64,000 bases of DNA. Source: Clostridia bacterium (GTDB lineage Bacteria; Bacillota; Clostridia; Christensenellales; Aristaeellaceae). The position numbers and the translations under genes are program-made. Within the stretch, counting starts at the first letter, position 1. Every line of letters starts with the position of its first letter. The stretch spans positions 20,335-84,334 of the forward strand of contig JAGBAV010000099.1 in the NCBI GenBank assembly GCA_017938795.1. The letters run 5' to 3'. Below are positions 2,304-20,315 of the stretch, piece after piece. The notes beneath the pieces are model-generated. The model was not told the origin of the DNA. It saw nothing but the letters and a program-made list of their open reading frames with translations, and ran no database searches.

Positions 2304-5300
2304 ATGACGGTTCGAATTCCGTGGGATCGCTATGAAGTTGCCCTTCTCTTCAGCGCCTATGAACAGGTTGCCAACGGTGCTGATATTAGCGCAGAGGCAG
2401 CGAAGCTGTCCGAGACCTTACGGGTCCTTGCCATCCGGAGGGGCGTTTCTATTGATGACACTTATCGGAACGTCAATGGCATGAAAATGCAGCTTGCCAA
2501 TGTGCAATACTTGTTTACGGGCGGTCAGAAAGGTTTGTCCGGCGCATCTGCGATGATCCGCCAGATGTATGAATTGTACAAAGACACGCCTGCTGAGTAT
2601 CAAACTATTTTGAAGGAGGCGATTCGATTGACCGGTTCAAATGAATCTGTTGAAGATGCCTTCTTTACGTATGCCAAGGAACGTATAGGCCTCTCTCCCA
2701 GAATGCTTGCCGAGTATATGCAGAAGGCGGCTGACTATTGTCATCTGAAGCAGCCCCTTCTTGGTATGACGGAAGTCAAGGCTGTGCGGAATGTACAGCA
2801 GAAGATTGCAGAGGGTAAGCTGCTGCGTTTTCGGTATGGGAAAGATGCTCAGACGATCCGCAACGTGACTCGTCTTTATTATACCTTTATCAAAAGCTAT
2901 CGTGAGACCAAAGAGGAACCGCCGGTACCGGTAGTACCAGCGAAAGAAAAAATTGTAACGGCTCAGCCCACGCTTGTCGTGGATGCTACGGTCGTTGAAC
3001 CCACTTTCGATCCTCAGACTGTTGCTATCGTTGAAGTGTCCGATGCTGGCGCATCTGAACCAAGTGCTTCAGTTCTGCGTGAAGAAATAACTGTAGAAAC
3101 AATCGATGACCGACTCTGGGTGGATTTCAGTCAAGATAATTCTTACCTGTTCACAAAGCCAGTTTCTTATATATATAAGGGTGTGCTCCATGATGCTAAG
3201 TCCTGGAATAGGCTTTATGTGGAGGTGTGCGGCCTTCTATTCACAGATCACCGCGAGGCCTTCATGGGCATCATGAATGGCGATGTCCCTGGCTACAATG
3301 TGCTTGCATTCGCGGACGAACAGAACTATCGTCGGATGCGGGTACCAAAGAGCTTTGTTCCAGGGTATTATCTTGAATCAAATCTGGACGCCACCTCAAT
3401 TGTTCGCAGGATTCGAGGGCTTTATCAGCTGTTTAAGCTTGGCGACGGTTTTCGGATTTCGTACATCAAACTGGGTGATGCAAGGGGCATTGAAGTCCCC
3501 GTGGAATCAGCTGAAGAGTGGCTCATACATGAGCTTCGCACCAAGAAGATACCTTATGTAGATAATCGGCCGGCAGGCGGATGCCTTTGGATTGCGTCTG
3601 ATATGTCCATTCCGATTCCTCTGAATGAAGCGACAGAAAAAGGATATAGATTCCGACTTAAGCAGGATGGCTGCAGGGCCTTCCCGAATCGTCCTGTCAT
3701 ATGGACAAAGGATCAGCCGAAGCAGCCCGCCAAAGCAATACCTATCATTCTGACCAGCGACGGTCAAATCTCCCTGGACGCTTTCAAACGGTTCTTGATT
3801 CATGATAAGGGGTTTGCAGAACGTACAGCTGGTAATTACTGGACTTCCATTCGGATGATCGAAGCGTACATCCAGCGCAACAAACTGGATTTTTCGTTGC
3901 TCAATACAGATGCAGCCGGCGCACAGAGGATCTTTGATTTGCTTATGGCGCGGCCGGACTTTGAGCAGATTAACATTCAACGTCACCGCCAATTCAGTGC
4001 TGCTTTGGTGCAATACGTTATATACCTCCGCCAGGGCGGGAATATAGTGCCCGAAGGAAAGCGTAAGCTGCCAGGGCAAAAAACGATTATCGAAACTGTC
4101 TTTGATGTCCTTCGCCAGGCAGGAAAACCGATGACAGTTTCAGAAATATACCAGGCGATTAACCGGGGCGATCTCTACCCCTTTGGCGCACAGGATCCGC
4201 AGTCGGTTGTGTACAGCAAGGTTTCTCTTGCATGCAGGCAAACTGAAGACCGTATCAAAGAAGGAAGAGATGTGCTGATTCGTTCCGAGGTGGATGGCCG
4301 AAAGGTGTTTCAGGTCATGTCCGCCAAAGAAGGGGCTGCATATTTGCAGGCGCAGCAAAGGAAATCTGTGCAGGAAACCGCATCGCCATGGGCGGAATAC
4401 GAAGTCGTGCTCACACAGGCTTTCCCGAAGGGCTTTCAAAAAGAATCAGGCTTAGATATGAAGAAGCTGCGGAAACGCTGGGCGGAGATTTATGGAGATG
4501 AACTGAAGGACTCTGACGATACCGTTCGTATGCAACTGGCCGCGCACTGCGTAGATACCGGCAAGCGATGGTATCTTGCGGAACTTCTTCTGTCCGACGA
4601 TGACCGTCAGATGGTTCTGGGGTACATTGATCGTGTGCTCGACATGGGGAAATCGGTGCTCTACTATTCTTCCCTCTATGCTGCGTTGGAGCATCAGCTG
4701 GAGAGTACGGTGTTGACGGAAGCTTTGTTGATCAGTTATCTTCTGGCCACTTGCCAAGACCGGTATATCCTGCGGGAATATTACTTGACCAACGACTGCC
4801 ACGCTCAGGTGGATCTGTCGGAAGAAATCAAAGACGTGATGTTGGCTCACGGCCGTCCCATTCACACGGACGAGCTGAAACAAGCGCTGCATCATCTCCC
4901 TCCGGATCAGGTGGAGCGCGAGCTTCACATCCGTTCAGAGTTCATCTTGGATGCTTTCCATATGTACTTCCATGAATCCATGGCAGACCTGACGGACCAG
5001 GAGCTTGATCAGATTGCTGCATTTATTCAGGAAGAGCTGGATGATCAGGGATACATGATCGGGGATTGGATTCAGCGAAAACTGGCTCGATTGTATCCGG
5101 AGACTGCCGAGCGCCTCAGCTTCCTGACGCTACTGGGTGTGCGTGGCGCTGTGGCTTATAAGCTGCGGGATCGCTTCACGTTCTCCGGCCCAGTGATCAC
5201 GCCTAAGGGTAAGGCTATGAATATGATCGACATCTTTGCCGGGTTCTGCCAGCGCCATACGCCGTTTACGCTGGATGAGTTGGCAGCCTTTGCCAAGGAA

Positions 5301-5786
5301 TGCGATTCAGCCATCTATCTAGACACGGTTCACAAGAACTGCGCTCGCGTCAGCGAAAAGGAATTCGTTGCCACAGGGGCTGTGTGCTGGAACATTTCAC
5401 ATATTGACGCCGCCATTGCACTGCACTGCCCAGGAAAGTACGTGTCACTGAAGAGCATCCAATATTTCGACGCTTTTCCCTATGTGGGGTATTCTTGGAA
5501 CAGCTACCTGCTGGAGCAGTACGTAGCTACCGTCAGCCATGATTTCACACTGATGCACTCCAGCTACGCCAAGAACAACACGTCCGGCGCTATTGTACGT
5601 CGGGATGCAGGGTTTGAATCCTTCGACGATGTTCTGGCGGATATCCTGGCCAATGCCCCGGTGAATTTGGAGAAAGATACATGTCTGGAGTATCTGGCCG
5701 ATGTGGGTTATATCACCAGGAGGAAACTTTCCAGTATTAACGAGACTATTTCGAGAGCCAAGATGCTGCGCTCTCAGAAGGGATGA
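2304..5786 (+). CDS. Large multidomain protein of unknown function, first gene of the BREX type 4-like operon
   Basis: A 1160-residue protein I do not recognise as a whole. Residues 1-215 form a helical N-terminal domain (WDRYEVALLF...GLSGAS) that I recall on other Clostridia restriction-type proteins. After a Pro/Val-rich linker, residues 268-395 hold a second conserved block starting VDFSQDNSYLFTKP. Residues 487-590 resemble the SAM-like core-binding domain of tyrosine recombinases (FKRFLIHDKGFAERTAGNY), without a catalytic domain. Residues 592-685 look like a HARE-HTH/winged-helix domain (GKPMTVSEIYQAINRGDLYP). The remaining 470 residues appear helical, perhaps more winged helices. No nuclease, helicase or methylase motif is evident. 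Several DNA-binding-like modules suggest target recognition or an effector scaffold. ATG 2304 lies eight bases after AGGTG; GTG 2298 is too close. The next gene starts six bases after its stop. Confidence 0.7.
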   Translation: MTVRIPWDRYEVALLFSAYEQVANGADISAEAAKLSETLRVLAIRRGVSIDDTYRNVNGMKMQLANVQYLFTGGQKGLSGASAMIRQMYELYKDTPAEYQTILKEAIRLTGSNESVEDAFFTYAKERIGLSPRMLAEYMQKAADYCHLKQPLLGMTEVKAVRNVQQKIAEGKLLRFRYGKDAQTIRNVTRLYYTFIKSYRETKEEPPVPVVPAKEKIVTAQPTLVVDATVVEPTFDPQTVAIVEVSDAGASEPSASVLREEITVETIDDRLWVDFSQDNSYLFTKPVSYIYKGVLHDAKSWNRLYVEVCGLLFTDHREAFMGIMNGDVPGYNVLAFADEQNYRRMRVPKSFVPGYYLESNLDATSIVRRIRGLYQLFKLGDGFRISYIKLGDARGIEVPVESAEEWLIHELRTKKIPYVDNRPAGGCLWIASDMSIPIPLNEATEKGYRFRLKQDGCRAFPNRPVIWTKDQPKQPAKAIPIILTSDGQISLDAFKRFLIHDKGFAERTAGNYWTSIRMIEAYIQRNKLDFSLLNTDAAGAQRIFDLLMARPDFEQINIQRHRQFSAALVQYVIYLRQGGNIVPEGKRKLPGQKTIIETVFDVLRQAGKPMTVSEIYQAINRGDLYPFGAQDPQSVVYSKVSLACRQTEDRIKEGRDVLIRSEVDGRKVFQVMSAKEGAAYLQAQQRKSVQETASPWAEYEVVLTQAFPKGFQKESGLDMKKLRKRWAEIYGDELKDSDDTVRMQLAAHCVDTGKRWYLAELLLSDDDRQMVLGYIDRVLDMGKSVLYYSSLYAALEHQLESTVLTEALLISYLLATCQDRYILREYYLTNDCHAQVDLSEEIKDVMLAHGRPIHTDELKQALHHLPPDQVERELHIRSEFILDAFHMYFHESMADLTDQELDQIAAFIQEELDDQGYMIGDWIQRKLARLYPETAERLSFLTLLGVRGAVAYKLRDRFTFSGPVITPKGKAMNMIDIFAGFCQRHTPFTLDELAAFAKECDSAIYLDTVHKNCARVSEKEFVATGAVCWNISHIDAAIALHCPGKYVSLKSIQYFDAFPYVGYSWNSYLLEQYVATVSHDFTLMHSSYAKNNTSGAIVRRDAGFESFDDVLADILANAPVNLEKDTCLEYLADVGYITRRKLSSINETISRAKMLRSQKG

Positions 5787-5792
5787 GGGCAC

Positions 5793-8159
5793 ATGTATTC
5801 CTACGAATGGGATGCTGAGACTGGCGGATATGTGCTAAACAGTACGCCCCTGCCGTTCAGCAAAGAACCGCGCCCGGTATATTATCGGGAGATGGATTTG
5901 CTTGGCTTTGATAAATATTGGGATTACGAAAAAAATGAAACTTATCCATATATGTGGGCGGAGGCAAATAAATACTGGTATCGCGGACAATTAGTAGCGC
6001 AGCTAAAAGGAGGTACCATTTTTCAGGCTCCTGAATTGGTACCAGATGAAAATGCAAGAAGTATTGAACGCTTTATTCCTGTAGACATTGCGGAAATGGT
6101 ATCGCGCAATAGCAGTATTCTTGATAGCCTTGTGGCTGAGACAATTAAGAATACATACAATACATACATTGATTACAGAAATAAAGTTGATCTGTTCTAT
6201 GTGGCCTTTAGCGGAGGTAAGGATAGTGTTGTAGCCCTTGACATCGTTCAAAGAGCTATCCCTCATGAAGATTTCTTGGTGCTATTTGGAGATACACAAA
6301 TGGAGTTCTCTGATACTTACGATGTAATGGAGCAAACAAGAAAACAGTGCGAAGAGAAAGGCATCCGGTTCTTAGTAGCCAGTTCAAAACTTGAGCCTGG
6401 ATACACATGGGATAAAATAGGCCCTCCTGCGCAGAAAATGAGATGGTGCTGCAGCGTTCATAAAACCGCGCCGCAGATTATCCTGCTACGAGATTATATG
6501 AGAAATCCTCATTTCCGTGGTATGGCAATGATGGGTGTCAGAGGCGATGAAAGCATAGCGCGAAGTAAATACGATGACGTAAACCTCGGAACAAAGCATA
6601 AAGGCCAATATGATTATTATCCGATTCTGCGATGGAATTCGGCAGAACTGTTTCTCTATATTTATCAACAAGGATTGATTATTAATAGGACTTACCGTCT
6701 GGGGAATAACAGAGCAGGTTGCCTTGTTTGCCCGATGGCATCAAAAAAAGGTTCTTGGGTCAGAGAACAGCTTTATGGCGATAGTCCGGATGAAAAACAT
6801 TCAACGCGATTCTTCAATGATTTGATCATTAAAAAAACAGTTGCCAGCTCTATGCCGCCAGCCGCGCAACGTGAATTTATGGAGTTCGAAGGTTGGAAGT
6901 CCAGGCATGATGCGCGAAAACTGAGTGCTCCGGATTTGGTGTATGATGATGAGATGATACCTGGGATACAGATTATTAGAATCAAGCGTATAGCAACGAA
7001 CTGGAGAGAATGGATTAAGACCCTTGGAGAAATAACTTATCAAGAATCAGGAACGGTGCGTATCCACTTCGGAACTGAATGGTTTACAACCAGCTATGAA
7101 GAAAAAGATGGAGGGTTGGAATTCCACATTAAAACCAGCAATACAAAAGACGAGATTCTATTCATAGCGGCATTAAAGAATATCCTGCGAAAATCAGCTT
7201 ACTGTATTGGTTGCCAAGTATGTGAAGCGAATTGTCCAAACGGATTTATTAGTTTCGAAAATGGTGATGTGCATATTGATGACCGATGTGTACACTGCCT
7301 AATGTGTCACAAGGTTTCATCTTCAAGTTGCTGGGTAGCTGAATCACACAAAATGCCAAAGGAGAAAAGCATGATGACTACAAGTATTGATCGCTACAAG
7401 ACGCTTGGTGTTCAGTTTTCTTGGGTGAAGGATTACTTTGAGAAAAAGAACGAATTCTGGGATAATAACAGTTTGGGAACAATGATGCTAAGCCCTCTCA
7501 AAGCGTTTTTGGCCGATACTGGAGTTAGTCGGAAGGGAAAAATAACTGCCTTTGGCGAACTTATATGCAAAATTGGTATTGATAGTGAAACGGCTTGGGC
7601 TCTGATGCTTTGCAATGCGGCATATACTTCTGAAATAAACTGGTGGGTTAAGAATATCTCTTTTAAGCGCTCTTATACTCCTGCCGAGATAGTGGCGCTT
7701 TTGATGGATGATGTGCCATCGGAAAAATCTCGGAAAAACGTTGTTTCTGCATTCAAAAACTTGTGCAGCAGTAATCCGATATTGGGAGACCGGATAGGGC
7801 TTGGTCATTGTAATAGCGAACAGAAAGGCCGAGTGACGCATCTATTGGATATCACCAGAACCACATGGTCAGATCCGGATCCCCTCGTCATCCTTTACGC
7901 TCTCTACAAATTCGCTGAGGCCTGCGAAGGATACTATCAGTTCACCCTCACCACGCTGATGGACGACACCATCGAGCGCGGCGGTATCAGCCCCACAGAG
8001 ATTTTCGGCTTGAGCGCCGAAACCATGGAAAGGCTGATCAATGGTCTTTCCATCAACCACTCGGAATTCATTACCTGCTCATTCAAGATGGACCTGGACA
8101 GCATCACACTGCGGCCTGACAAGACCTCGGATGACGTGCTGGCACTGTTCGAAGCATAA
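5793..8159 (+). CDS. brxP: BrxP-like PAPS reductase/DndC-family protein with ferredoxin-like module
   Basis: A 788-residue protein. Residues about 130-340 are a PAPS-reductase/DndC-type ATP-pyrophosphatase domain: the PP-loop is FSGGKDS at 139-145, followed by RWCCSV (C219, C220) and GCLVCP (C310, C313), likely ligands of an iron-sulfur cluster as in DndC/SspD. Residues 470-513 form a ferredoxin-like insert (C471, C474, C477, C481, then C499, C502, C505, C513). The tail, about 520-788, resembles DUF4007, which elsewhere is a separate protein beside such reductases. In Dnd and Ssp systems this enzyme activates DNA for sulfur insertion. BREX type 4 is defined by a gene of this kind. The partner cysteine desulfurase is the last gene of the same operon. 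The family assignment is firm; DNA phosphorothioation is inferred. Confidence 0.85.
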   Translation: MYSYEWDAETGGYVLNSTPLPFSKEPRPVYYREMDLLGFDKYWDYEKNETYPYMWAEANKYWYRGQLVAQLKGGTIFQAPELVPDENARSIERFIPVDIAEMVSRNSSILDSLVAETIKNTYNTYIDYRNKVDLFYVAFSGGKDSVVALDIVQRAIPHEDFLVLFGDTQMEFSDTYDVMEQTRKQCEEKGIRFLVASSKLEPGYTWDKIGPPAQKMRWCCSVHKTAPQIILLRDYMRNPHFRGMAMMGVRGDESIARSKYDDVNLGTKHKGQYDYYPILRWNSAELFLYIYQQGLIINRTYRLGNNRAGCLVCPMASKKGSWVREQLYGDSPDEKHSTRFFNDLIIKKTVASSMPPAAQREFMEFEGWKSRHDARKLSAPDLVYDDEMIPGIQIIRIKRIATNWREWIKTLGEITYQESGTVRIHFGTEWFTTSYEEKDGGLEFHIKTSNTKDEILFIAALKNILRKSAYCIGCQVCEANCPNGFISFENGDVHIDDRCVHCLMCHKVSSSSCWVAESHKMPKEKSMMTTSIDRYKTLGVQFSWVKDYFEKKNEFWDNNSLGTMMLSPLKAFLADTGVSRKGKITAFGELICKIGIDSETAWALMLCNAAYTSEINWWVKNISFKRSYTPAEIVALLMDDVPSEKSRKNVVSAFKNLCSSNPILGDRIGLGHCNSEQKGRVTHLLDITRTTWSDPDPLVILYALYKFAEACEGYYQFTLTTLMDDTIERGGISPTEIFGLSAETMERLINGLSINHSEFITCSFKMDLDSITLRPDKTSDDVLALFEA

Positions 8160-8176
8160 CATAGGAGGAAACGGTC

Positions 8177-11100
8177 ATGGCCGAGCTGTACAGAGACTAC
8201 TTTGACATAGACCCGGAGTTTTTCCCCGCCGTCAACGCTAGCGTCATTGAACAGCATCCCAACCTCTGGGAGAAGTTCTATCCTCACGAGACATTTGTCA
8301 AGCTCATGCGGGATCTGATCAGCTGCGTCAGCCGCCTGCAGAAGCTGTCTGTCTGGGTGGAGGGCGAATACGGCACCGGTAAATCCCATGCCGTACTGAC
8401 TCTCAAAAAACTGCTAGAGGCGGATGATACCACCACGAAAGCCTACTTTGACCGGTTCCCGGAGCAGCTGGGCAACGACCTGTATAATAAGCTCTACTCC
8501 CTGAAACACGCCGGGAGCATACTTGTGGTGCATCGTTACGCTTCTTCCGATATTACCAGTGAAACGGATCTGCTCTTTGACGTACAGGACAGCATTGTTG
8601 CCGCACTGCGCGAGAAGGGATACAAGGAAGGCGACGGCGCATTGCGTTCGGCGGCCATTCAGTGGTTGAGCGATCCTGACAACAAAGCCTATTTCAACGG
8701 CCTGATGAAGGGTGCCTATGCGACGACCTTCGGCGGAGATGACGTGGACGCCCTGATCAAAAAGCTGCAGACATTCGAAGGCCTGCCGCTTTCCGAAATC
8801 ATGACGAAGGTCATGAAAGTGGCCAATGAGCGCGGTATCCGCGTACTGACCCTGACCAAAGAAGTGCTGCAGGATTGGATCCGCGCAGTCATCAAGGATA
8901 ATAACCTGTACGGTCTCATATTCATCTGGGATGAATTTACAGATTTCTTCAAAAACAACCGTACCCGTCTGTCCGGCCTGCAGGCGCTGGTGGAAATGTC
9001 CGAGGGGGACTTCTTCTATCTGATCCCCGTCACCCACAATGTAGCCAACCTGTTCCCGGCTAAAGACAAGGACTGGAACGTCATCAGCCATCGCTTTGTG
9101 CAGCCCTTCTGCAATATCGAGCTGCCGGACAATATGGCTTTCCGCCTGATGGGCAAAGCCTTGGAAAAGCGCCAAGATACCCACCTGATGGATGAATGGT
9201 CGGAAACCTCCGAAGAACTCTATGAGCGCACCAGGGACGCCCGCGTCCTGGTGAAGAAGCAGGCCAAGATTCAGGATACAGAGCTGCGCGATGTGCTGCC
9301 GCTGCATCCGTATGCCGCGCTTCTACTCAAAAACATGGCCAGTTATTACGCCGGCGATGTGCGGAGCATGTTCGACTTCCTAAAAAACGACACCGGCGAC
9401 GAAATCCGCGGCTTTAAGTGGTTTATCGATACATTTGGCCCCGCAGATGACAATCCCCTACTGACAGTGGACTTGTTGTGGGACTTCTTCTATGAAAAGG
9501 GTAAGGAGATGCTGGACAGGGATGTACGCAAGGTACTGGACAGCTTTGGCCGCGCCCGCAATCTGATCGGCGATGAGCCGCGCATCTTGAAAGCGATTCT
9601 GCTGATGCAGGCCATTTATGAGAAAACCGGCTCTCAAGTGGAAGTGCTCGCTCCTAGTTCAAAGAACATCGAATACGCATTCATGGGTTCTGATCTGGAC
9701 GATGGGCAGCCCACAAAGATCGCGGACAGTCTTGTCAGGAAGAAGATTCTCTACAAGACGCCGGGCTCTAACCTTTATAGTGCACTCCTCAGCGCGGATG
9801 ACGACATTCCTCCGGTGGATGTGAAATTTTCGAATCTTCTGACTGAAGGCGAGATGCAGACGGTCATTGCCCCCAAAGGAGCGCTGAAGCTGCGCTACGA
9901 CTTTACCTTGGTGGCTGACGCAAGCCGTCTGGAACAGCAGCTCAAAGGCATCGTGAACCAGGGCAAAGACAATCGGATACACTCCGTGATTGCATTTGCC
10001 AAGAGTGGCATAGATGCCTATGAGCTTTCTAAGGCGTTTAGTACTTTCGCGCGTGACGAGCGCTTCCATTCCATCGTATTCATCGATGTCACTCTTACGC
10101 CACTGGGTGACGACCGCTTTGAGCAGATCTCTGATTCCAAAGCCAAGTATGAATACTGGCTGAAGAAACAGGGCGACATGGCGGGTCAGTACAGCAAGAA
10201 TGTGAGCGAAGTACTGAAAGACTGGCGCAAGAGTGTCGAGAAGGGCGAGTTCATCATCTATTGGGAGAACGCGCCGACCGGCAAACGCGTTCCGACATTG
10301 GATGCGCTTTACACCGAACTGGGCGCCGTCAATCGTAAACGCTATTCTGATGGCTTGGAGACTTTTGCCGCCAATGCCACCGATACCATGTGGCAGGCGA
10401 ATCAGCTGAAAAATGGCGTGGGCCTTGGCGCAGGTTCTGGTGGGACGTTGGGGCAGTTTAGCTGCGTTCCCAAGGATCTGGGCGAAGCCTGGACCACGGA
10501 GCGCTATTGGGAAGCTCTGCCTATGCTGACAATCTCCAAAATCAAACGCACAGTGGATACCATGATTACCAAGGCATTCAGAACGGGCGACCGAATCTCC
10601 ATCCGGGACATCTATGAGAAATTGTATGAAGCGCCATATGGCTTCATGCCCTGTAATCAGACGGCATTCATCCTTGGTTTCCTTTTGCGGGAATATGCCG
10701 ATGGTTCTTTCTCCTCGAGCGACGGAATCAAATCGGACAAATTGGATAATGACAAGCTGAAGAACATTGTCTCCGAGTACATTTCCGAGCGCATGACACC
10801 GACCCTACGCTATAAGGATAAGTATATCGTGAAGATGACGGAGGAAATCAAGGCCTTTGTGGCGGCCTCCGCCACGATCTTCGGCCGCTCTGTCAACGTT
10901 TCACTGATGGAGGATATCCGGGATACTGTGGTACGGCCCGCTATGCATGCACTGCCCTTCCCGATGTGGTGTCTGAAGTACTTGGGAGATGGGCCTTCCT
11001 TCAAGAACAGCACCGAAAACGTGCATCGGCTGATCGACCTCTATACTGCTTTCGCCAACAGTGGCAGCACCGATGGGCGCTCTGATAATGATATAGCCAC

Positions 11101-12337
11101 CGACATAGGCAGACTTGTGATTCGTCATCCCGGGCTGGCAGAGGACCTGCACAGCATCGTGTCCGAACAGAAAGTACGGGAGGGCATGAAGAACTATTTG
11201 GATGGCTTTGAGGATGGTATCCTGCCCAAACTCGGCGAACAGATTAGTGATGGCGGACAGTATATTACTCGCCTGCAACAGAGGTTCAGCGCCGATGCGG
11301 CAAACTGGGTCTGGTTCAAGGAGACAGCCGATCAGCAGATTCGTATGCTGATTCTAGAATACAGAATCGTTGTCGCAAGCAACACGGTGATTCTGCACAG
11401 CAATTCTTTCGGAGGTTGCATCGAAGAGTGGTGCAATGTCTGCAAAAACATCAAAATCTCCTATCTGTACGCCAAGAGCTACTGGGATGATCTTGGACCG
11501 TTTATGGAGATTCTGTATGGAATTAAAAAATCTGGTGAGCTTCAGGAAAACCGTCGTGAGCAGTTCCTGCAGCTGATCACAGATAAAGGCGCGGCTTTCA
11601 AAACCTTCTATAACCATCAGGAAGGCGTGTTTGCCAACGCCTGCAGTTATATTCTCCAGGGTCTTGACACGGATTCTGTCAGCGAAATCTATAAACAGCT
11701 GCTGGGCAGCGAACTCTTCACATCCGAAAAGAGCTATTATCAGCAGCGCGTCCAGGAAACGGTGAAAACCTGGAGCGAGAGCCAGGAAGGCGCTAAACTG
11801 ATTAAAGTCTGGAAGGATACGACAAAGACGGAGTCACCGCGTGCTTGGTCGCAGGCTTATCTGATGCCTGTTCTCTGCATGGTGGATGACCCCGGCGAAG
11901 AGATCATAGCAAAAGAGGCCTTTGATGCCATCAATGCTGTTGCGAAGAAAAAGAAAGTCGACGGACGGAGTATTGAGGATGCGATGAAATTCCTGCAGTC
12001 CCATGCTGTTCTGCTTCAGAAGCTGGATGACTCTGCTGCGAGGGATGATACTTTCCGCAAGCGCATCCTGGGTCGCTACGATGTGCTACTCCAGAATATT
12101 GAAGAGGTCAAGCATGAGCTGGAGCAGCATTTGTTAGAACATCCGTATGACTGGTATCATCTAACCAGTCTGGAAAACGCCCTCCGCAAAAAGGCCGAAT
12201 TCGTGTATAACGGATCAGGCTACGAGCTTGCAGTTCAAAAGATTGATGAGATGGATATCGCTGATGTGAAGCGTTATCTAAAGGATCTTATTGAGAAGAA
12301 CATGACCGTGGGCATCGAGATCATCCGCGAAAACTGA
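8177..12337 (+). CDS. brxC: BrxC-like giant P-loop ATPase
   Basis: A 1386-residue cytoplasmic ATPase. Walker A is GEYGTGKS at 63-70, and a Walker B-like FIWDEF lies near 249-254. It begins with a short acidic segment naming no known enzyme domain, and the rest is long helical regions, as in BrxC/PglY proteins (usually about 1200 residues). BrxC is an essential ATPase of BREX complexes and interacts with PglZ; here it sits directly before pglZ, with ATG following an AGGAGGAAA site. The stop overlaps the region used as the ribosome site of pglZ. No nuclease motif was seen. Identification rests on P-loop type, size and gene order, since sequence conservation in this family is weak; a DndH/SspC-like ATPase is the alternative. 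Confidence 0.8.
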   Translation: MAELYRDYFDIDPEFFPAVNASVIEQHPNLWEKFYPHETFVKLMRDLISCVSRLQKLSVWVEGEYGTGKSHAVLTLKKLLEADDTTTKAYFDRFPEQLGNDLYNKLYSLKHAGSILVVHRYASSDITSETDLLFDVQDSIVAALREKGYKEGDGALRSAAIQWLSDPDNKAYFNGLMKGAYATTFGGDDVDALIKKLQTFEGLPLSEIMTKVMKVANERGIRVLTLTKEVLQDWIRAVIKDNNLYGLIFIWDEFTDFFKNNRTRLSGLQALVEMSEGDFFYLIPVTHNVANLFPAKDKDWNVISHRFVQPFCNIELPDNMAFRLMGKALEKRQDTHLMDEWSETSEELYERTRDARVLVKKQAKIQDTELRDVLPLHPYAALLLKNMASYYAGDVRSMFDFLKNDTGDEIRGFKWFIDTFGPADDNPLLTVDLLWDFFYEKGKEMLDRDVRKVLDSFGRARNLIGDEPRILKAILLMQAIYEKTGSQVEVLAPSSKNIEYAFMGSDLDDGQPTKIADSLVRKKILYKTPGSNLYSALLSADDDIPPVDVKFSNLLTEGEMQTVIAPKGALKLRYDFTLVADASRLEQQLKGIVNQGKDNRIHSVIAFAKSGIDAYELSKAFSTFARDERFHSIVFIDVTLTPLGDDRFEQISDSKAKYEYWLKKQGDMAGQYSKNVSEVLKDWRKSVEKGEFIIYWENAPTGKRVPTLDALYTELGAVNRKRYSDGLETFAANATDTMWQANQLKNGVGLGAGSGGTLGQFSCVPKDLGEAWTTERYWEALPMLTISKIKRTVDTMITKAFRTGDRISIRDIYEKLYEAPYGFMPCNQTAFILGFLLREYADGSFSSSDGIKSDKLDNDKLKNIVSEYISERMTPTLRYKDKYIVKMTEEIKAFVAASATIFGRSVNVSLMEDIRDTVVRPAMHALPFPMWCLKYLGDGPSFKNSTENVHRLIDLYTAFANSGSTDGRSDNDIATDIGRLVIRHPGLAEDLHSIVSEQKVREGMKNYLDGFEDGILPKLGEQISDGGQYITRLQQRFSADAANWVWFKETADQQIRMLILEYRIVVASNTVILHSNSFGGCIEEWCNVCKNIKISYLYAKSYWDDLGPFMEILYGIKKSGELQENRREQFLQLITDKGAAFKTFYNHQEGVFANACSYILQGLDTDSVSEIYKQLLGSELFTSEKSYYQQRVQETVKTWSESQEGAKLIKVWKDTTKTESPRAWSQAYLMPVLCMVDDPGEEIIAKEAFDAINAVAKKKKVDGRSIEDAMKFLQSHAVLLQKLDDSAARDDTFRKRILGRYDVLLQNIEEVKHELEQHLLEHPYDWYHLTSLENALRKKAEFVYNGSGYELAVQKIDEMDIADVKRYLKDLIEKNMTVGIEIIREN

Positions 12338-12347
12338 GGTGTCTTAC

Positions 12348-14633
12348 ATGAAGATCAGTGATATTTACGGACGGATAGAAAGATACTTGCGCAGTGATGA
12401 TACACGACCAAGGATTGTCAACTTCCAAGACCGCGCATCCCTCATTGCGTTCCGAGATCATTTTAACGTTGGGACTGCTGCGTTCAAAATGCCATCTGAT
12501 TACAGCAAGGTCGATGAAGACATCCTGACGGAGAATCTGTATGCTGAGATTCAATCGTTCCAAGGGAATCTCTTCCTGATTGGCTTCACATCGCAACTGA
12601 AGCTGAAAGGCCGTGACACGCTGCATCAGTTCATTGCTCAGATTGCGCATATGACACGAAACTCTGGAAAGCTGATTCTCGTATGCTTCTGCTGCGCGGA
12701 AATGCTTCACTTTGATGATACCCGTATCCAGGGGTTGGTGTATCCTGCAGATGACGCGACCAGCAATCTTCCCCAATTACGCTTTGTCGGTGACGACATC
12801 TCAATCTCCAAGGACCAAAAGGTAACGAAGGGCATTGACAAGGTCGGGCTGCTGGTTGAAACCGTTTATGCAGATACCCTCTTGATACGCACAAAAAAGC
12901 TTGCGCAAGATTATCCGAATTCCATGCTTCATATAGAGGAACTCGTAGACGCCTATGCTGCATTATGCAGCTTTGATCCAGCCACCGCCGGATTAGATAA
13001 AGCATTGGGTAAAGCAGATCAGTGGGCCTTTGCGTTGAAATATATTTCATCCGATGGCAGTTGGAATAACCTGGTGACACACCTCTTTGGCAGTCCCTAT
13101 ACACTTGATCTTGCTGTAGGGCAATGGGATCGCTTTACCGATGATATGCAGTGGCTGTATTTCATTGCGCTGAAGCTCTTTGGCGCGCAGAAAAACTGGT
13201 GCCTGAATCAAGCAGCAAACGCGGCATCATCACCCAAAGATATGGTACGGAAGATCTATCGCTCTATTCTGGGAGAGGACTGCAATTCAACAGCCTTCAT
13301 CAACCGGTATCGAGAAAGAAAGCAGTTGTTACAGCAGATGTTTGATGTAGAAGATGATGCGGAAGTCATCGACTATATAAAAATGACGAAGCAGCACAAG
13401 AAAGATGCAATACGATATCTGACGAATAATACAAAGCTTGAAAAAGAAGCCATCATCGACCTGATCAGCGTTTATGCTCAAGAGTATACTTTGCAAGAAC
13501 TCAGGAGCATTCTGGAAGAAGTATATCCCGACCTGGCTGCTTACCTGGATGAATATTCCTTCCCCGGGAATAACTGGCTGGATGCATATTTTACGGAGTA
13601 TCGTTATTCTAAAGTCATAAACCGGGTTTCCCCTGAACTGAGAGAAACGGCTCAGCAGCAGGCTGTTGATCATGACTTTTTGAAGCTCTTGCCCAGAATT
13701 GCTGTAGTGGACAGCATACCGAAGGACGGGACCTTCCTTTTCTTCGTCGATGCTATGGGCGTAGAGTTTATTCCGTATATCGTGCAAAAATGCCGGGAGT
13801 ACGATTTAAAGATTACCATAACGGTATCGCACTGCGAGCTTCCTTCGCTGACGCGGTGCAACAAGGATTTCTTTGAATCCTATCCACCCGAGCAGAGAAC
13901 GAAAGTATCTGAGCTCGATGATATCATTCATCACGGCAAAGAAAACTACGATTACCAGGTAACCAAAACGCCTCTTCATTTGATCCGGGAACTGGAAATC
14001 ATTGATGAAGTGCTCAGAAACGCGAGGACAAGACTTTTATTCGGCAACTCAACCACCAGGGTTCTTCTGGTCGCTGACCATGGCGCGACCCGCATGGCAG
14101 TGATCAACGAGCACATCATTGATATCGATGTCAATTCCAAGGGGACAAACGGTGGACGTGTATGTGAATACACCGAAGCTGTGAAAACAGTCCCTTGTGC
14201 CATCCGTGAGGGCGATTATTACGTACTCGCAAGCTACGACCGCTTTAAAGGCGGACAACCCGCCAACGTAGAAGCACACGGTGGCGGGACGCTGGAAGAA
14301 GTGCTTGTTCCCGTAATAACACTGTCAATGCCGACCGAGGAGGTCGAGGTTCAGGTAGAAACAAAGATCGTTGAGTACAGTTTCAAACAGCAGCCTGTAT
14401 TGAAACTGTTCTCGAAAACGATTCTTACAAATGCCAGCGTGCTGATTAACGGGAAATGGTACGAAGCAGATGCCTCGATAGATGGCCAGAACTTCTCGTT
14501 TATGTTGGCGGGACTTAAGAAAGGTCAGTATACTGCCGCTTTGTATGCCAACAGAAGTGAAGTTGCCACCGGACTGACGTTTGAATTGAGAAGCAAAGCC
14601 GGTAGCTCAACGGGCAAGGCCGGTATACTGTAA
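12348..14633 (+). CDS. pglZ: PglZ-domain protein (alkaline-phosphatase superfamily)
   Basis: A 761-residue protein. The C-terminal half carries the PglZ domain: LFFVDAMG with D468, VADHG with D577-H578, and AHGGG with H644 followed by LEEVLVPV. These are the metal-ligand positions expected of the alkaline-phosphatase fold. PglZ is the signature protein of all BREX systems and binds zinc; PglZ domains also serve as nuclease-like effectors elsewhere. The N-terminal 400 residues are unassigned. I chose ATG 12348 because GAGGTG at 12336-12341 lies six bases ahead, whereas the GTG at 12339 falls within that site. It lies between brxC and brxL, the order expected of type 4. Confidence 0.88.
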   Translation: MKISDIYGRIERYLRSDDTRPRIVNFQDRASLIAFRDHFNVGTAAFKMPSDYSKVDEDILTENLYAEIQSFQGNLFLIGFTSQLKLKGRDTLHQFIAQIAHMTRNSGKLILVCFCCAEMLHFDDTRIQGLVYPADDATSNLPQLRFVGDDISISKDQKVTKGIDKVGLLVETVYADTLLIRTKKLAQDYPNSMLHIEELVDAYAALCSFDPATAGLDKALGKADQWAFALKYISSDGSWNNLVTHLFGSPYTLDLAVGQWDRFTDDMQWLYFIALKLFGAQKNWCLNQAANAASSPKDMVRKIYRSILGEDCNSTAFINRYRERKQLLQQMFDVEDDAEVIDYIKMTKQHKKDAIRYLTNNTKLEKEAIIDLISVYAQEYTLQELRSILEEVYPDLAAYLDEYSFPGNNWLDAYFTEYRYSKVINRVSPELRETAQQQAVDHDFLKLLPRIAVVDSIPKDGTFLFFVDAMGVEFIPYIVQKCREYDLKITITVSHCELPSLTRCNKDFFESYPPEQRTKVSELDDIIHHGKENYDYQVTKTPLHLIRELEIIDEVLRNARTRLLFGNSTTRVLLVADHGATRMAVINEHIIDIDVNSKGTNGGRVCEYTEAVKTVPCAIREGDYYVLASYDRFKGGQPANVEAHGGGTLEEVLVPVITLSMPTEEVEVQVETKIVEYSFKQQPVLKLFSKTILTNASVLINGKWYEADASIDGQNFSFMLAGLKKGQYTAALYANRSEVATGLTFELRSKAGSSTGKAGIL

Positions 14634-14644
14634 GGAGCGATCAC

Positions 14645-16087
14645 ATGGAAGAGAAACTGCGTGAAGTATTTGAGGAAATGGCGGTCTACAAAGACTTGAA
14701 GACGAGCAATTTCCTGAAAACACTGGGGTTGCCTTCTTTCCTTCGCGATTGGCTGCTGAGGAAATTTGAAGATGATGAGGGGCAATTCGATATTGCAGAG
14801 CTGCAAGAATTTGTCCGAACTTATCTTCCGCGCCAGGATGAATGGACAAAAATAAAAGATATGATCATGTTCGAAAACGAACGTGTGAGTATTCTGACTA
14901 AGATCATTGTCAGCATTGACATTAAAACGCAGGCGGTTACTTTTGAACTGCCTATGTTTGGGCTTACCCCAAAGGAAACGATCATCGAGCCTGATGTTTG
15001 GAATGATGTCAAGGACGAACTAGTCAACAGCAAGGAAACCTGGGGCGTTGTGGAACTTGGATACCGGATACCAATGCCCGAAATGCATCAGCCAGGGAAA
15101 ATCAAGCTGACCAATTTTACAAGCTTTTGTCCGTACACGGTTGATCTTGATTTTTACAAAGAGGCCCGTGCAGAGTTCTCCACAGAAGAGTGGATTCGCC
15201 TGCTCCTTGGCGCTATCGATTACAATGCTGACGGTTATAAATGCGAGACGGAAAAAATGGCCACCTTGACACGGCTTTTGCCCTTTGTTGAAAAACGGCT
15301 TAATTTGATTGAACTTGCGCCAAAGGGGACGGGAAAATCCTATTTGTTCGGACAGATCAGCCGCTATGGCTGGCTTTCGAATGGCGGTACGATGTCCAGA
15401 GCTAAGATGTTCTATGATATGAGCAAAAGAGCGCCTGGTCTCGTAAGCTGCAACGATTATGTCGCAATTGATGAGATCCAGGCTACCGAGTTCCCGAATC
15501 CGCTCGAAATGCGCTCTTCATTGCAGGGATATCTTGAAAACAATGGTACCTTTACTGTTGGTACATACAGCGGAACTGGTGAGGCTGGACTTATTCTACT
15601 TGGCAACATCGATCAGGAGATCATGGACGAATACCAGTTTATGTTCGGAGACCTTCCTGGCATTTTCAGGATTGATGGCGCTTTGCTTGATAGATTCCAT
15701 GGATTCATCAAGGGCTGGGATATACCACAGGTGAACGATGGAATGAAAATCTGTGGATGGGCATTGAATTCAGAGTATTTCTGTACGATCATGCATCTTC
15801 TCCGCGAAGACATCAGCTATAGGGCTATCGTTGATCAGTTGCTGGACGTGCCGGATGACGCTTATACAAGAGATACAGAGGCGGTTAAACGTATTGCGAC
15901 TGCCTATCTGAAGCTCCTATTTCCGCACGTCAGAACCGCTGCGGATGTAAATCCAAAGGAGTTTAAACGCTATTGTCTGACTCCTGCCTGCAAGATGAGA
16001 AGAATCATCCGCATGCAGATCAGCATGTTCGACAGTTCGTACAACAGCGAGCTGCCGCAGTTCAAAATAAGGGAAGTTGTCGAATGA
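14645..16087 (+). CDS. brxL: BrxL-like AAA+ protein (short form, no Lon protease domain seen)
   Basis: A 480-residue AAA+ protein with Walker A PKGTGKS at 226-232 and Walker B YVAIDE at 272-277, then a sensor-like LLGNID. BrxL of type 1 systems is about 680 residues and ends in a Lon-like fold. This form ends soon after the ATPase core (about 150 residues) and shows no Ser-Lys protease dyad, matching the shorter TIGR02688-type proteins also labelled Lon-like. BrxL forms a DNA-translocating barrel required for phage exclusion. The start follows AAGGAG by seven bases. The stop overlaps the next ATG by four bases, so the small protein that follows is translationally coupled. Confidence 0.85.
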   Translation: MEEKLREVFEEMAVYKDLKTSNFLKTLGLPSFLRDWLLRKFEDDEGQFDIAELQEFVRTYLPRQDEWTKIKDMIMFENERVSILTKIIVSIDIKTQAVTFELPMFGLTPKETIIEPDVWNDVKDELVNSKETWGVVELGYRIPMPEMHQPGKIKLTNFTSFCPYTVDLDFYKEARAEFSTEEWIRLLLGAIDYNADGYKCETEKMATLTRLLPFVEKRLNLIELAPKGTGKSYLFGQISRYGWLSNGGTMSRAKMFYDMSKRAPGLVSCNDYVAIDEIQATEFPNPLEMRSSLQGYLENNGTFTVGTYSGTGEAGLILLGNIDQEIMDEYQFMFGDLPGIFRIDGALLDRFHGFIKGWDIPQVNDGMKICGWALNSEYFCTIMHLLREDISYRAIVDQLLDVPDDAYTRDTEAVKRIATAYLKLLFPHVRTAADVNPKEFKRYCLTPACKMRRIIRMQISMFDSSYNSELPQFKIREVVE

Positions 16088-16281
16088 AATATATCTGTAT
16101 TGCATGTGGCAAAGAAATAACTGAGAAAGATACGATAGGTATTAACAAAAAACTTCTTGGACAAAAGGTAAAAAGCCTTTATTGCATGCCATGTCTCGCA
16201 GACTACCTCAGAACCACTGTGGAAGATCTGAATGAAAAAATCGAAGAATTCAAGGAGGAAGGTTGTAAACTGTTTTCATGA
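16084..16281 (+). CDS. 65-residue double-CxxC protein in the BREX operon
   Basis: A short protein with two CxxC pairs, C5/C8 and C34/C37, spaced like a zinc ribbon or rubredoxin-like knuckle, followed by a Lys/Glu-rich helix. It overlaps brxL by four bases at its start and the cysteine desulfurase by four bases at its end, so it is almost certainly expressed with both. An upstream ATG at 15973 in the same frame lies inside brxL and is rejected. Possible roles are a zinc-binding adaptor or a sulfur/iron carrier between desulfurase and BrxP. Neither is proven and I do not recognise the family. Confidence 0.75.
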   Translation: MKYICIACGKEITEKDTIGINKKLLGQKVKSLYCMPCLADYLRTTVEDLNEKIEEFKEEGCKLFS

Positions 16282-17405
16282 ACAAAACAATGATTTACGC
16301 AGATCATGCGGCAACTACGGCATTAAGCCCAACTGCTTATGAAGCTATGCTGCCGTGGCTCCAGGACAAGTATGGCAACCCTTCCACCCTCTACAGCCTT
16401 GCCCGGGATCCGCGCAAGGCTCTTGCGCATTCAAGGGAAATGATAGCAGCTGCTATCAATGCCGACGCCAGTGAAATTTTCTTTACTTCGGGCGGCACAG
16501 AGGCAGACAACTGGGCGCTGAAGGGAACGGCATTTCAGTATGAGCGCGGGAAAGGCATTATCACCAGTGCTATCGAACACCACGCTATCCTGAATAGTTG
16601 CGCCGCACTGGAACGGATGGGGTATCCTATTGCTACTCTTCCGGTAGATTCGGAGGGTGTAGTTGATTCAGATGCATTGAAATCCTCGCCAATGTCCGAT
16701 GCTGTATTAGTTTCAGTAATGCTTGCTAACAATGAGATTGGCACCATCGAACCCGTCGCAGAGTTAGCGCAAATCGCGCATCAAGCGGGCGTTCTGTTTC
16801 ACACAGATGCCGTACAGGCAATTGGGCATATCCCCGTGGATGTTAAGACGCTGCATGTTGATATGCTGTCCGCATCAGCACATAAGTTCAATGGCCCGAA
16901 GGGAGCTGGCTTCCTTTATGTCCGCAATGGTGTTAACCTCATTCCTTTGTTGGATGGCGGTGGCCAGGAGCGTGGCATGCGCGCCGGTACCGAGAACGTT
17001 GCACACATCGTCGGCATGGCTGCCGCGTTGCAGGAGCATATGGAACACTTGGCCCAGGAAATCAAGTATCTAAATAAACTTTCCGGTAGACTGATCGATC
17101 AATTGAAGCAATATGGACTTGAATTTCGAATTAACGGAAGCCACGACAGGACCCCTGGTAGCTTAAGTCTATCCTTCAAAGCCGTTGATGGTGAAATGCT
17201 GCTGCATCGTCTTGACTTGATGGGTACGGCAGTAGCTACAGGGTCTGCCTGCAATTCCAAAGATGCCGTGCTGTCTCATGTGATTCGGGCAATTTCTGTA
17301 CCGAAAGAGTACGCTCACGGGACGATTCGGGTCACTTTGGGAATGGATAATACGTCAGAACATGTTGACAGGATTGCGCAGCAAATCACATCGATTCTAC
17401 ATTGA
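16278..17405 (+). CDS. Cysteine desulfurase (DndA/IscS/NifS type)
   Basis: A 375-residue PLP enzyme of fold type I that removes sulfur from cysteine as an enzyme-bound persulfide. Visible are AADHAATT near the start, SGGTEADN, HTDAVQA, the PLP-binding SAHKF with K203, and the catalytic loop GSACN with C325. The length fits IscS/DndA (about 380-400). It overlaps the small CxxC protein by four bases and closes the operon, so its sulfur most likely goes to the BrxP-like protein, as DndA supplies DndC and SspA supplies SspD. No IscU, iscR or thiI lies nearby, which argues against a housekeeping iron-sulfur or tRNA-thiolation role. Type 4 BREX operons with a built-in desulfurase are worth noting. 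Confidence 0.9.
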   Translation: MNKTMIYADHAATTALSPTAYEAMLPWLQDKYGNPSTLYSLARDPRKALAHSREMIAAAINADASEIFFTSGGTEADNWALKGTAFQYERGKGIITSAIEHHAILNSCAALERMGYPIATLPVDSEGVVDSDALKSSPMSDAVLVSVMLANNEIGTIEPVAELAQIAHQAGVLFHTDAVQAIGHIPVDVKTLHVDMLSASAHKFNGPKGAGFLYVRNGVNLIPLLDGGGQERGMRAGTENVAHIVGMAAALQEHMEHLAQEIKYLNKLSGRLIDQLKQYGLEFRINGSHDRTPGSLSLSFKAVDGEMLLHRLDLMGTAVATGSACNSKDAVLSHVIRAISVPKEYAHGTIRVTLGMDNTSEHVDRIAQQITSILH

Positions 17406-18082: not shown

Positions 18083-18128
18083 GTGGTGGCTCAAGACGGA
18101 TTCGAACCATCGACCTGCCGGGTATGAA
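18083..18128 (-). repeat. Direct repeat of the tRNA-Met 3' half (att-like copy)
   Basis: These 46 bases are identical to 20098-20143, running from just past the CCA end of tRNA-Met through the T-arm to the anticodon loop. The 5' half of the tRNA is absent and the next bases differ, so this is not a gene. It is best read as an attachment-site copy left by integration, dividing the island proper from a 2 kb element at its right edge. Confidence 0.85.
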
Positions 18129-20097: not shown

Positions 20098-20143
20098 GTG
20101 GTGGCTCAAGACGGATTCGAACCATCGACCTGCCGGGTATGAA
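20098..20143 (-). repeat. Right att-like repeat within tRNA-Met
   Basis: The chromosomal partner of the 46 bp repeat at 18083-18128. It covers the tRNA from anticodon loop to CCA. Integration here leaves the tRNA intact because the element brings the same 3' half. Confidence 0.8.
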
Positions 20144-20175
20144 CCGGACGCTCTAGCCAGCTGAGCTATTGAGCC
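20099..20175 (-). tRNA. tRNA-Met (CAT), elongator type
   Basis: 77 bases including encoded CCA. The acceptor stem GGCTCAA/TTGAGCC is perfect, the T-arm is GATGG/CCGTC with TTCGAAT loop, and the anticodon loop is TTCATAC. The outermost anticodon-stem pair is a T-C mismatch. CAT with this body fits elongator Met; a lysidine-modified Ile2 tRNA cannot be fully excluded. It is the integration target of the island. Confidence 0.9.
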
Positions 20176-20286: not shown

Positions 20287-20315
20287 ATTATATCGCAGCG
20301 CCCGTCTTTTGTCAA
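20287..20315 (-). promoter_or_regulatory. Sigma-A promoter of the tRNA pair
   Basis: On the minus strand a perfect TTGACA is followed after 17 bases by a perfect TATAAT, 30 bases ahead of tRNA-fMet. The -35 overlaps the stop end of the ppx gene. Confidence 0.85.

Follow-up and report, generated by a model that had tools for sequence, protein, structure and literature searches.

A clade-linked winged-helix protein in type 4 BREX operons as a proposed exchangeable DNA-recognition subunit

Type 4 BREX and the Clostridia operon

Type 4 BREX is described as phosphorothioate (PT)-based in the available part of PMC12839542 (January 2026), which counts 255 of 457 taxa with a cysteine desulfurase, often with an adjacent small zinc-finger protein. 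The accessible text of PMC12707154 gives much the same account, and that of PMC11931770 lists brxPCZL as a PT-synthesis family, with reference to Yuan et al. 2024.

We analysed a 64,000-nt stretch (the window) from a Clostridia bacterium of the Aristaeellaceae (assembly GCA_017938795.1, contig JAGBAV010000099.1, positions 20,335–84,334, forward strand). Seven ORFs, none of them broken, occupy positions 2304–17405 of its plus strand with intergenic gaps of -4 to +17 nt. An earlier note on this DNA had described seven tightly packed plus-strand genes forming a type 4 BREX-like set, and both points were borne out. The count of seven also stood, but only six genes had been named there, and the large first gene (2304–5786), here called G1, had been given no role. 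It is followed on the same strand by brxP (5793–8159), the AAA ATPase gene brxC (8177–12337), a BREX-4-type pglZ (from 12339 with a GTG start, or 12348 with ATG, to 14633), brxL (14645–16087), a gene for a 65-aa mini-protein with five cysteines (16084–16281), and an IscS/NifS/DndA-type cysteine desulfurase gene (16278–17405). By gene content the operon is a complete type 4 BREX system, with a predicted anti-phage role. It resembles published type 4 systems in having all core genes, a BREX-4-type PglZ, no methyltransferase, and a terminal desulfurase with a mini-protein; it differs in having G1 as its first gene, which is not among the components named in the available text of PMC12839542.

Profile searches of each protein against BREX and Dnd/Ssp families placed the four core proteins in BREX families. 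BrxP matched PADLOC model PDLC02510 (783 bits, residues 1–786 of 788) and Pfam PF01507 (E = 1e-24), and contains a PAPS-reductase-like PP-loop (SGGKD from residue 140) and a ferredoxin-like cysteine region at about 465–510. In type 4 BREX a DUF4007/BrxA-like domain is frequently fused to BrxP; here residues 532–741 also matched a second BrxP model, PDLC02511 (PADLOC, E = 2.5e-6), and Pfam listed no DUF4007 domain in the protein at E ≤ 1. BrxC matched PDLC02485 (PADLOC, 782 bits) and has the Walker A motif GEYGTGKS, but reached only 28 bits with the NCBIfam BrxC model (cut-off 400). PglZ passed the BREX-4-specific NCBIfam model NF033445 (BREX_PglZ_4; 370 bits, cut-off 140) and matched PDLC02554 (PADLOC, 248 bits) and the Pfam families DUF7862, DUF7863 and DUF7864; the generic Pfam PglZ family, PF08665, had no match anywhere in the genome. 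BrxL matched PF13337 (Pfam, E = 5e-104), TIGR02688 (NCBIfam, 392 against a cut-off of 329) and PDLC02505 (PADLOC, 686 bits). The searched motifs were found in BrxP, BrxC, PglZ, the mini-protein and the desulfurase, and simple patterns matched nothing in BrxL. The absence of a PglX methylase, whose place BrxP takes in type 4 BREX, was upheld as the note had reported it: Pfam, PADLOC and NCBIfam scans of the seven proteins returned no methyltransferase above threshold, and the one sub-threshold exception was an O-methyltransferase dimerisation match in G1 (Pfam, E = 0.12).

The operon is like SspABCD-SspE in combining a desulfurase with a PAPS-reductase-type enzyme, and BrxC and BrxP are distantly related to SspC (59 bits) and SspD (38 bits). 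Unlike that system, it encodes PglZ and BrxL, and the BREX models score about 13–20 times higher; neither SspE nor a separate SspB was matched at E ≤ 1 among the seven proteins. A DndA-like desulfurase is shared with DndABCDE and CxC-DndE (PbeABCD), but BrxP reaches no more than 24 bits with DndC, and DndB, DndD and DndE had no match among the operon proteins. An Ssp- or Dnd-type PT system was ruled out by the PADLOC scores of the seven proteins. The earlier note had instead proposed a new fusion of a BREX core with Dnd/Ssp chemistry. The desulfurase does score nearly equally as DndA (PDLC02657, 442 bits) and SspA (PDLC02759, 438 bits), as a chimaera might; however, the core matches established BREX models, the available text of PMC12839542 already has a desulfurase among type 4 components and the same gene order recurs in other genomes, and we regard a chimaeric origin as extremely improbable. 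Nor is BREX with a built-in sulfur pathway novel, type 4 BREX being in print as PT-based in that text, where the desulfurase and its small zinc-finger partner, which we had considered as candidate novelties, also appear. What appears to be new here is the unlabelled first gene, G1, which represents a clade-linked and shuffled family of predicted DNA-binding proteins.

PT chemistry is the best reading for this operon. Judging from the known families, the desulfurase would take sulfur from cysteine, BrxP with BrxC would build it, as phosphorothioate, into the backbone of host DNA, and phage DNA lacking the mark would be stopped by PglZ, BrxL and BrxC. The desulfurase has a lysine loop (SAHK from residue 200) and a cysteine loop (GSAC from residue 322). 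The note had called this enzyme dedicated. It is encoded in the operon, but the host assembly holds four further NifS-model matches (568, 328, 166 and 148 bits), so the operon desulfurase is not the sole possible sulfur source. The mini-protein has two CxxC pairs and a lone cysteine in a C-terminal GCxLF. All 25 rows compared, 23 of them distinct, keep the five cysteines and also the G, L and F of that motif. As a second, weaker inference, the mini-protein may be a carrier whose lone cysteine takes up sulfur at the desulfurase and delivers it to BrxP, the CxxC pairs holding metal. Against this, 8 of the 23 distinct rows have no detected operon desulfurase within the DNA stretch covered (L015, L059, which stops at a contig end, L060, L063, L064, L065, L067 and L071, which is decayed), and the type 4 small partner protein is read as zinc-finger/HTH-like in the available published text. 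The invariant lone cysteine makes the putative relay step testable by one point mutation.

The first gene and its linkage to brxP

G1 encodes 1160 aa without a match in PADLOC, NCBIfam or PHROGs. We found it described or named in none of the papers and family libraries searched, although the supplements and figures of PMC12839542 may show it. The AlphaFold model of its last ~460 residues (the C-domain, residues 698–1160, DNA about 4392–5783) is a tandem winged-helix array with a pLDDT of 93.1, and we assign this predicted fold to the domain; in VIA-align comparisons of the C-domain, most rows spanned one winged helix. The front half appears to hold several HTH modules: SANT/Myb-like by eye, weakly integrase-SAM-like, and HARE-HTH (E = 4e-4, under the Pfam cut-off). 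Its model is poor (pLDDT 68.5), and at that quality a Foldseek search for an enzyme fold returned nothing from the PDB at E ≤ 0.001, so an enzyme may yet be present there. A viral structure library yielded two rows at E ≤ 0.001, with function known for neither. Front parts in the family range from 134 to 916 aa with modules that differ between members; two relatives (L060 and L078) have sigma-70 region 4. None of 20 host relatives carried the G1 front module at E ≤ 0.001. A promoter scan upstream of G1 returned one site, on the opposite strand, against 1.1 expected.

A single-sequence search with the window G1, blind to BrxP, gave a match in 7 of 398 genomes of the phylum, host included. One genome (G224) matched the front module only, and the five others matched the C-domain, each directly before brxP (cut by the contig end in G265). 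A 20-row C-domain profile run on the same 398 genomes returned eight strong matches (428–589 bits), all already rows of the profile, and seven weak ones (29–68 bits) in six genomes; it missed divergent G1 relatives in G279 and G050. No strong C-domain was found away from brxP in the 398 genomes, a statement that applies to strong matches only, at most four candidates per genome having been scored at first look.

We then classified the gene preceding brxP at 37 census loci. A first set of 17 loci was picked by similarity to the window BrxP and is therefore biased towards its clade. Separately, a BrxP search at E ≤ 1e-20 matched 37 of the 398 genomes, of which 16 (17 further-listed loci) with full-length or broken BrxP-grade matches were taken. 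The remaining 21 genomes (77–336 bits) were read as having SspD-like or other PAPS reductases, and the four SspD-like contrast loci that were opened (L072–L075) lacked the G1 C-domain. To these were added G265, three genomes out of 247 from the phylum of G398 and two out of 148 from that of G402 (both at E ≤ 1e-110), a plasmid (L112) and one of two phage-labelled records with long matches (L113). A fragment (L017), two copies of L016 (L007 and L068) and a locus with 79 bases upstream (L013) were dropped, and L002, 99% identical to L001, was retained. A strong G1 C-domain preceded brxP at 23 loci, a divergent relative at four (L067, L070, L108, L109), a sigma-70-like gene at three (L063, L069, L071), and neither at seven (L056, L057, L058, L064, L066, L110, L112); the 398-genome sample alone contributed 7, 2, 3 and 5 of its 17 loci, respectively. 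Exceptions among the strong loci were one intervening ORF in L009 and L059, truncation in L010, and a cut or broken brxP in L078 and L111. The four divergent relatives are only weakly linked to G1, either directly (L067, E = 5e-7 with the window protein) or through L067 (L070, L108 and L109, E = 4e-86 to 5e-13). The intervening ORF in L059 (4798–5514, 238 aa) has a G1 front module and an HNH-like end by eye, with no Pfam match. The phage-labelled record (MT835511.1, unverified, 'Bacteriophage sp.', human stool) carries the full G1-brxP-brxC-pglZ-brxL-mini-desulfurase operon, and a pattern scan of viral_contigs found no BrxP relatives.

A BrxP tree of 33 loci and an outgroup, from which L002, L078 and the broken L069, L071 and L111 were further excluded, contained one 25-row clade (support 98/100) made up of 20 strong and four divergent G1 rows and L013. 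A G1-family gene precedes brxP in all 24 clade rows with upstream DNA (L013 has 79 bases) and in none of the eight rows outside, where seven have neither gene and one has the sigma-like gene. G1 is therefore not required for type 4 BREX generally, given those seven loci without a G1-type gene. Taken alone, the label 'strong G1' requires three changes on the tree, since L013 and the divergent rows fall within the clade. Distances between G1 C-domains correlated with those of BrxP, BrxC, PglZ and BrxL (Mantel r = 0.81, 0.92, 0.94 and 0.80; 18 loci, 17 for BrxL; 0 of 2000 permutations each), and 8 of 15 FastTree splits were common to the C-domain and BrxP. On this comparative evidence the C-domain is, by our reconstruction, co-inherited with the BREX core.

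Between the window and its closest relative, L001, BrxP, BrxC, PglZ, BrxL and the mini-protein are 89–97% identical and the desulfurase 67.5%, and identity in G1 rises from 46% (residues 1–125) through 59% (126–480) and 80% (481–697) to 84% (698–1160). Synonymous difference steps up together with protein difference, at 0.82 for G1 codons 1–480 and 0.83 for the desulfurase against 0.54 for the core and 0.48 for the C-domain, and none of 5000 contiguous core blocks reached the value of either the G1 front or the desulfurase. This parallel, in one locus pair, suggests that the G1 front half and the desulfurase underwent recombination, not fast protein change alone. Across ten related pairs, G1 front halves ranged from fully alignable to unalignable (L004/L005, L008/L009), with poor or absent alignment in several.

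Relatives in other systems and the role of G1

The weak C-domain relatives lie in six genomes (L094–L099). One, L094, stands alone, and in the other five a distant G1 relative of 958–1320 aa precedes two helicase/ATPase-sized genes, of 677–715 and 675–690 aa. The pair in L095 matched PbeA (807 bits) and PbeC (750 bits) by profile, which gives this operon a further likeness to PbeABCD; those of L096–L099 were likened to PbeA/PbeC by size and look-alike N-termini only. CxC-DndE/Pbe systems are described with a small PbeB in the available text of PMC10853773 and PMC6459918, and neither description, to that extent, includes a large winged-helix gene. DndC was found at E ≤ 1e-10 in none of seven genomes tested, host included (its assembly is about 79% complete). 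Three loci (L095, L098, L099) also have a gene whose product begins with an LLEPxYKxKYPPLGLMK-like sequence and by eye resembles a radical SAM/B12 protein.

Within type 4 BREX, the first gene of the L063 operon (12860–14341) is a full-length sigma-70-like gene (regions 1.1 to 4; PADLOC MzaA-like). Related copies stand beside decayed brxP genes in L069 and L071, and in L056 a relative lies after brxL, not in the first slot.

We propose that G1 is an exchangeable DNA-recognition or sensor subunit. Its C-terminal winged-helix array would dock on the BREX core, and its exchangeable front modules would read DNA for its sequence, its PT state or a phage trigger, aiming or licensing the complex. The main rival makes G1 a transcription regulator that controls brx expression from within the operon, with a sigma-70-like factor replacing it elsewhere. 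Its place as the first gene, its HTH modules and the sigma-70 region 4 of two relatives all fit such a regulator; so does the sigma-70-like occupant of the slot in L063, L069 and L071, which suits a transcription role equally well and counts against our proposal. However, the C-domain distances correlate with those of BrxP, BrxC, PglZ and BrxL, G1 at 1160 aa is a large protein for such a role, and the weak relative before PbeA/PbeC-like genes of another nuclease system suggests a machine part; we consider the regulator doubtful, if still of some weight. By analogy with HsdS in type I restriction-modification, G1 might instead set PT sequence specificity, as an exchangeable DNA-binding front on a conserved, core-linked end and the clade-wide linkage of the family to BrxP would allow. 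The target of Ssp systems is chosen by SspB. Since BrxP may carry an SspB-like end of its own, the PT site need not depend on G1; the match to PDLC02511 lies in the region to which the available text of PMC12839542 assigns an SspB-like DUF4007 domain. G1 is also missing from systems outside the clade, and a specificity role of this kind appears to us distinctly improbable.

As a whole, the reading of the locus as a type 4 BREX system with PT chemistry, G1 as a clade-specific subunit and the mini-protein as a sulfur carrier, all with predicted functions, is one that we hold with modest confidence. Its bolder form, in which G1 would found an undescribed family whose exchangeable members serve as recognition subunits, aiming PT-based defence in one type 4 BREX clade and, distantly, in CxC/Pbe-like systems, and in which the mini-protein would carry persulfide from desulfurase to BrxP, is speculative and in our view unlikely. 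A gene that persists across a whole clade and joins a core-linked C-terminus to an exchangeable front half would offer a direct genetic handle on DNA choice and phage sensing.

Island setting

G+C content is 48.5% in the operon and 64.4% across window positions 20301–64000. An att-like, 46-bp copy of a tRNA-Met gene end (18083–18128, plus strand) is an exact direct repeat of 20098–20143, 2 kb away, where an intact tRNA-Met gene (20099–20175, minus strand; ARAGORN) marks the chromosome side of the island; no third copy was found on the contig, and the far end of the island was not located. The island was probably acquired horizontally, looks mobile and is perhaps phage-derived. Upstream on the host contig (C74; L076, 3048–15762) are phage-type genes for a D5-like primase/helicase, a family A polymerase and a DUF2800 exonuclease, and an ABC-3C protein gene (L076, 17296–18483) also lies upstream of the BREX operon. 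About 300 bp before the operon, and outside it, the window holds a HEC-01-like pair of overlapping plus-strand genes, encoding an OLD-type ATPase (256–1356; PDLC04175, 470 bits) and a DUF4276 protein (1353–1997; PDLC04188, 251 bits).
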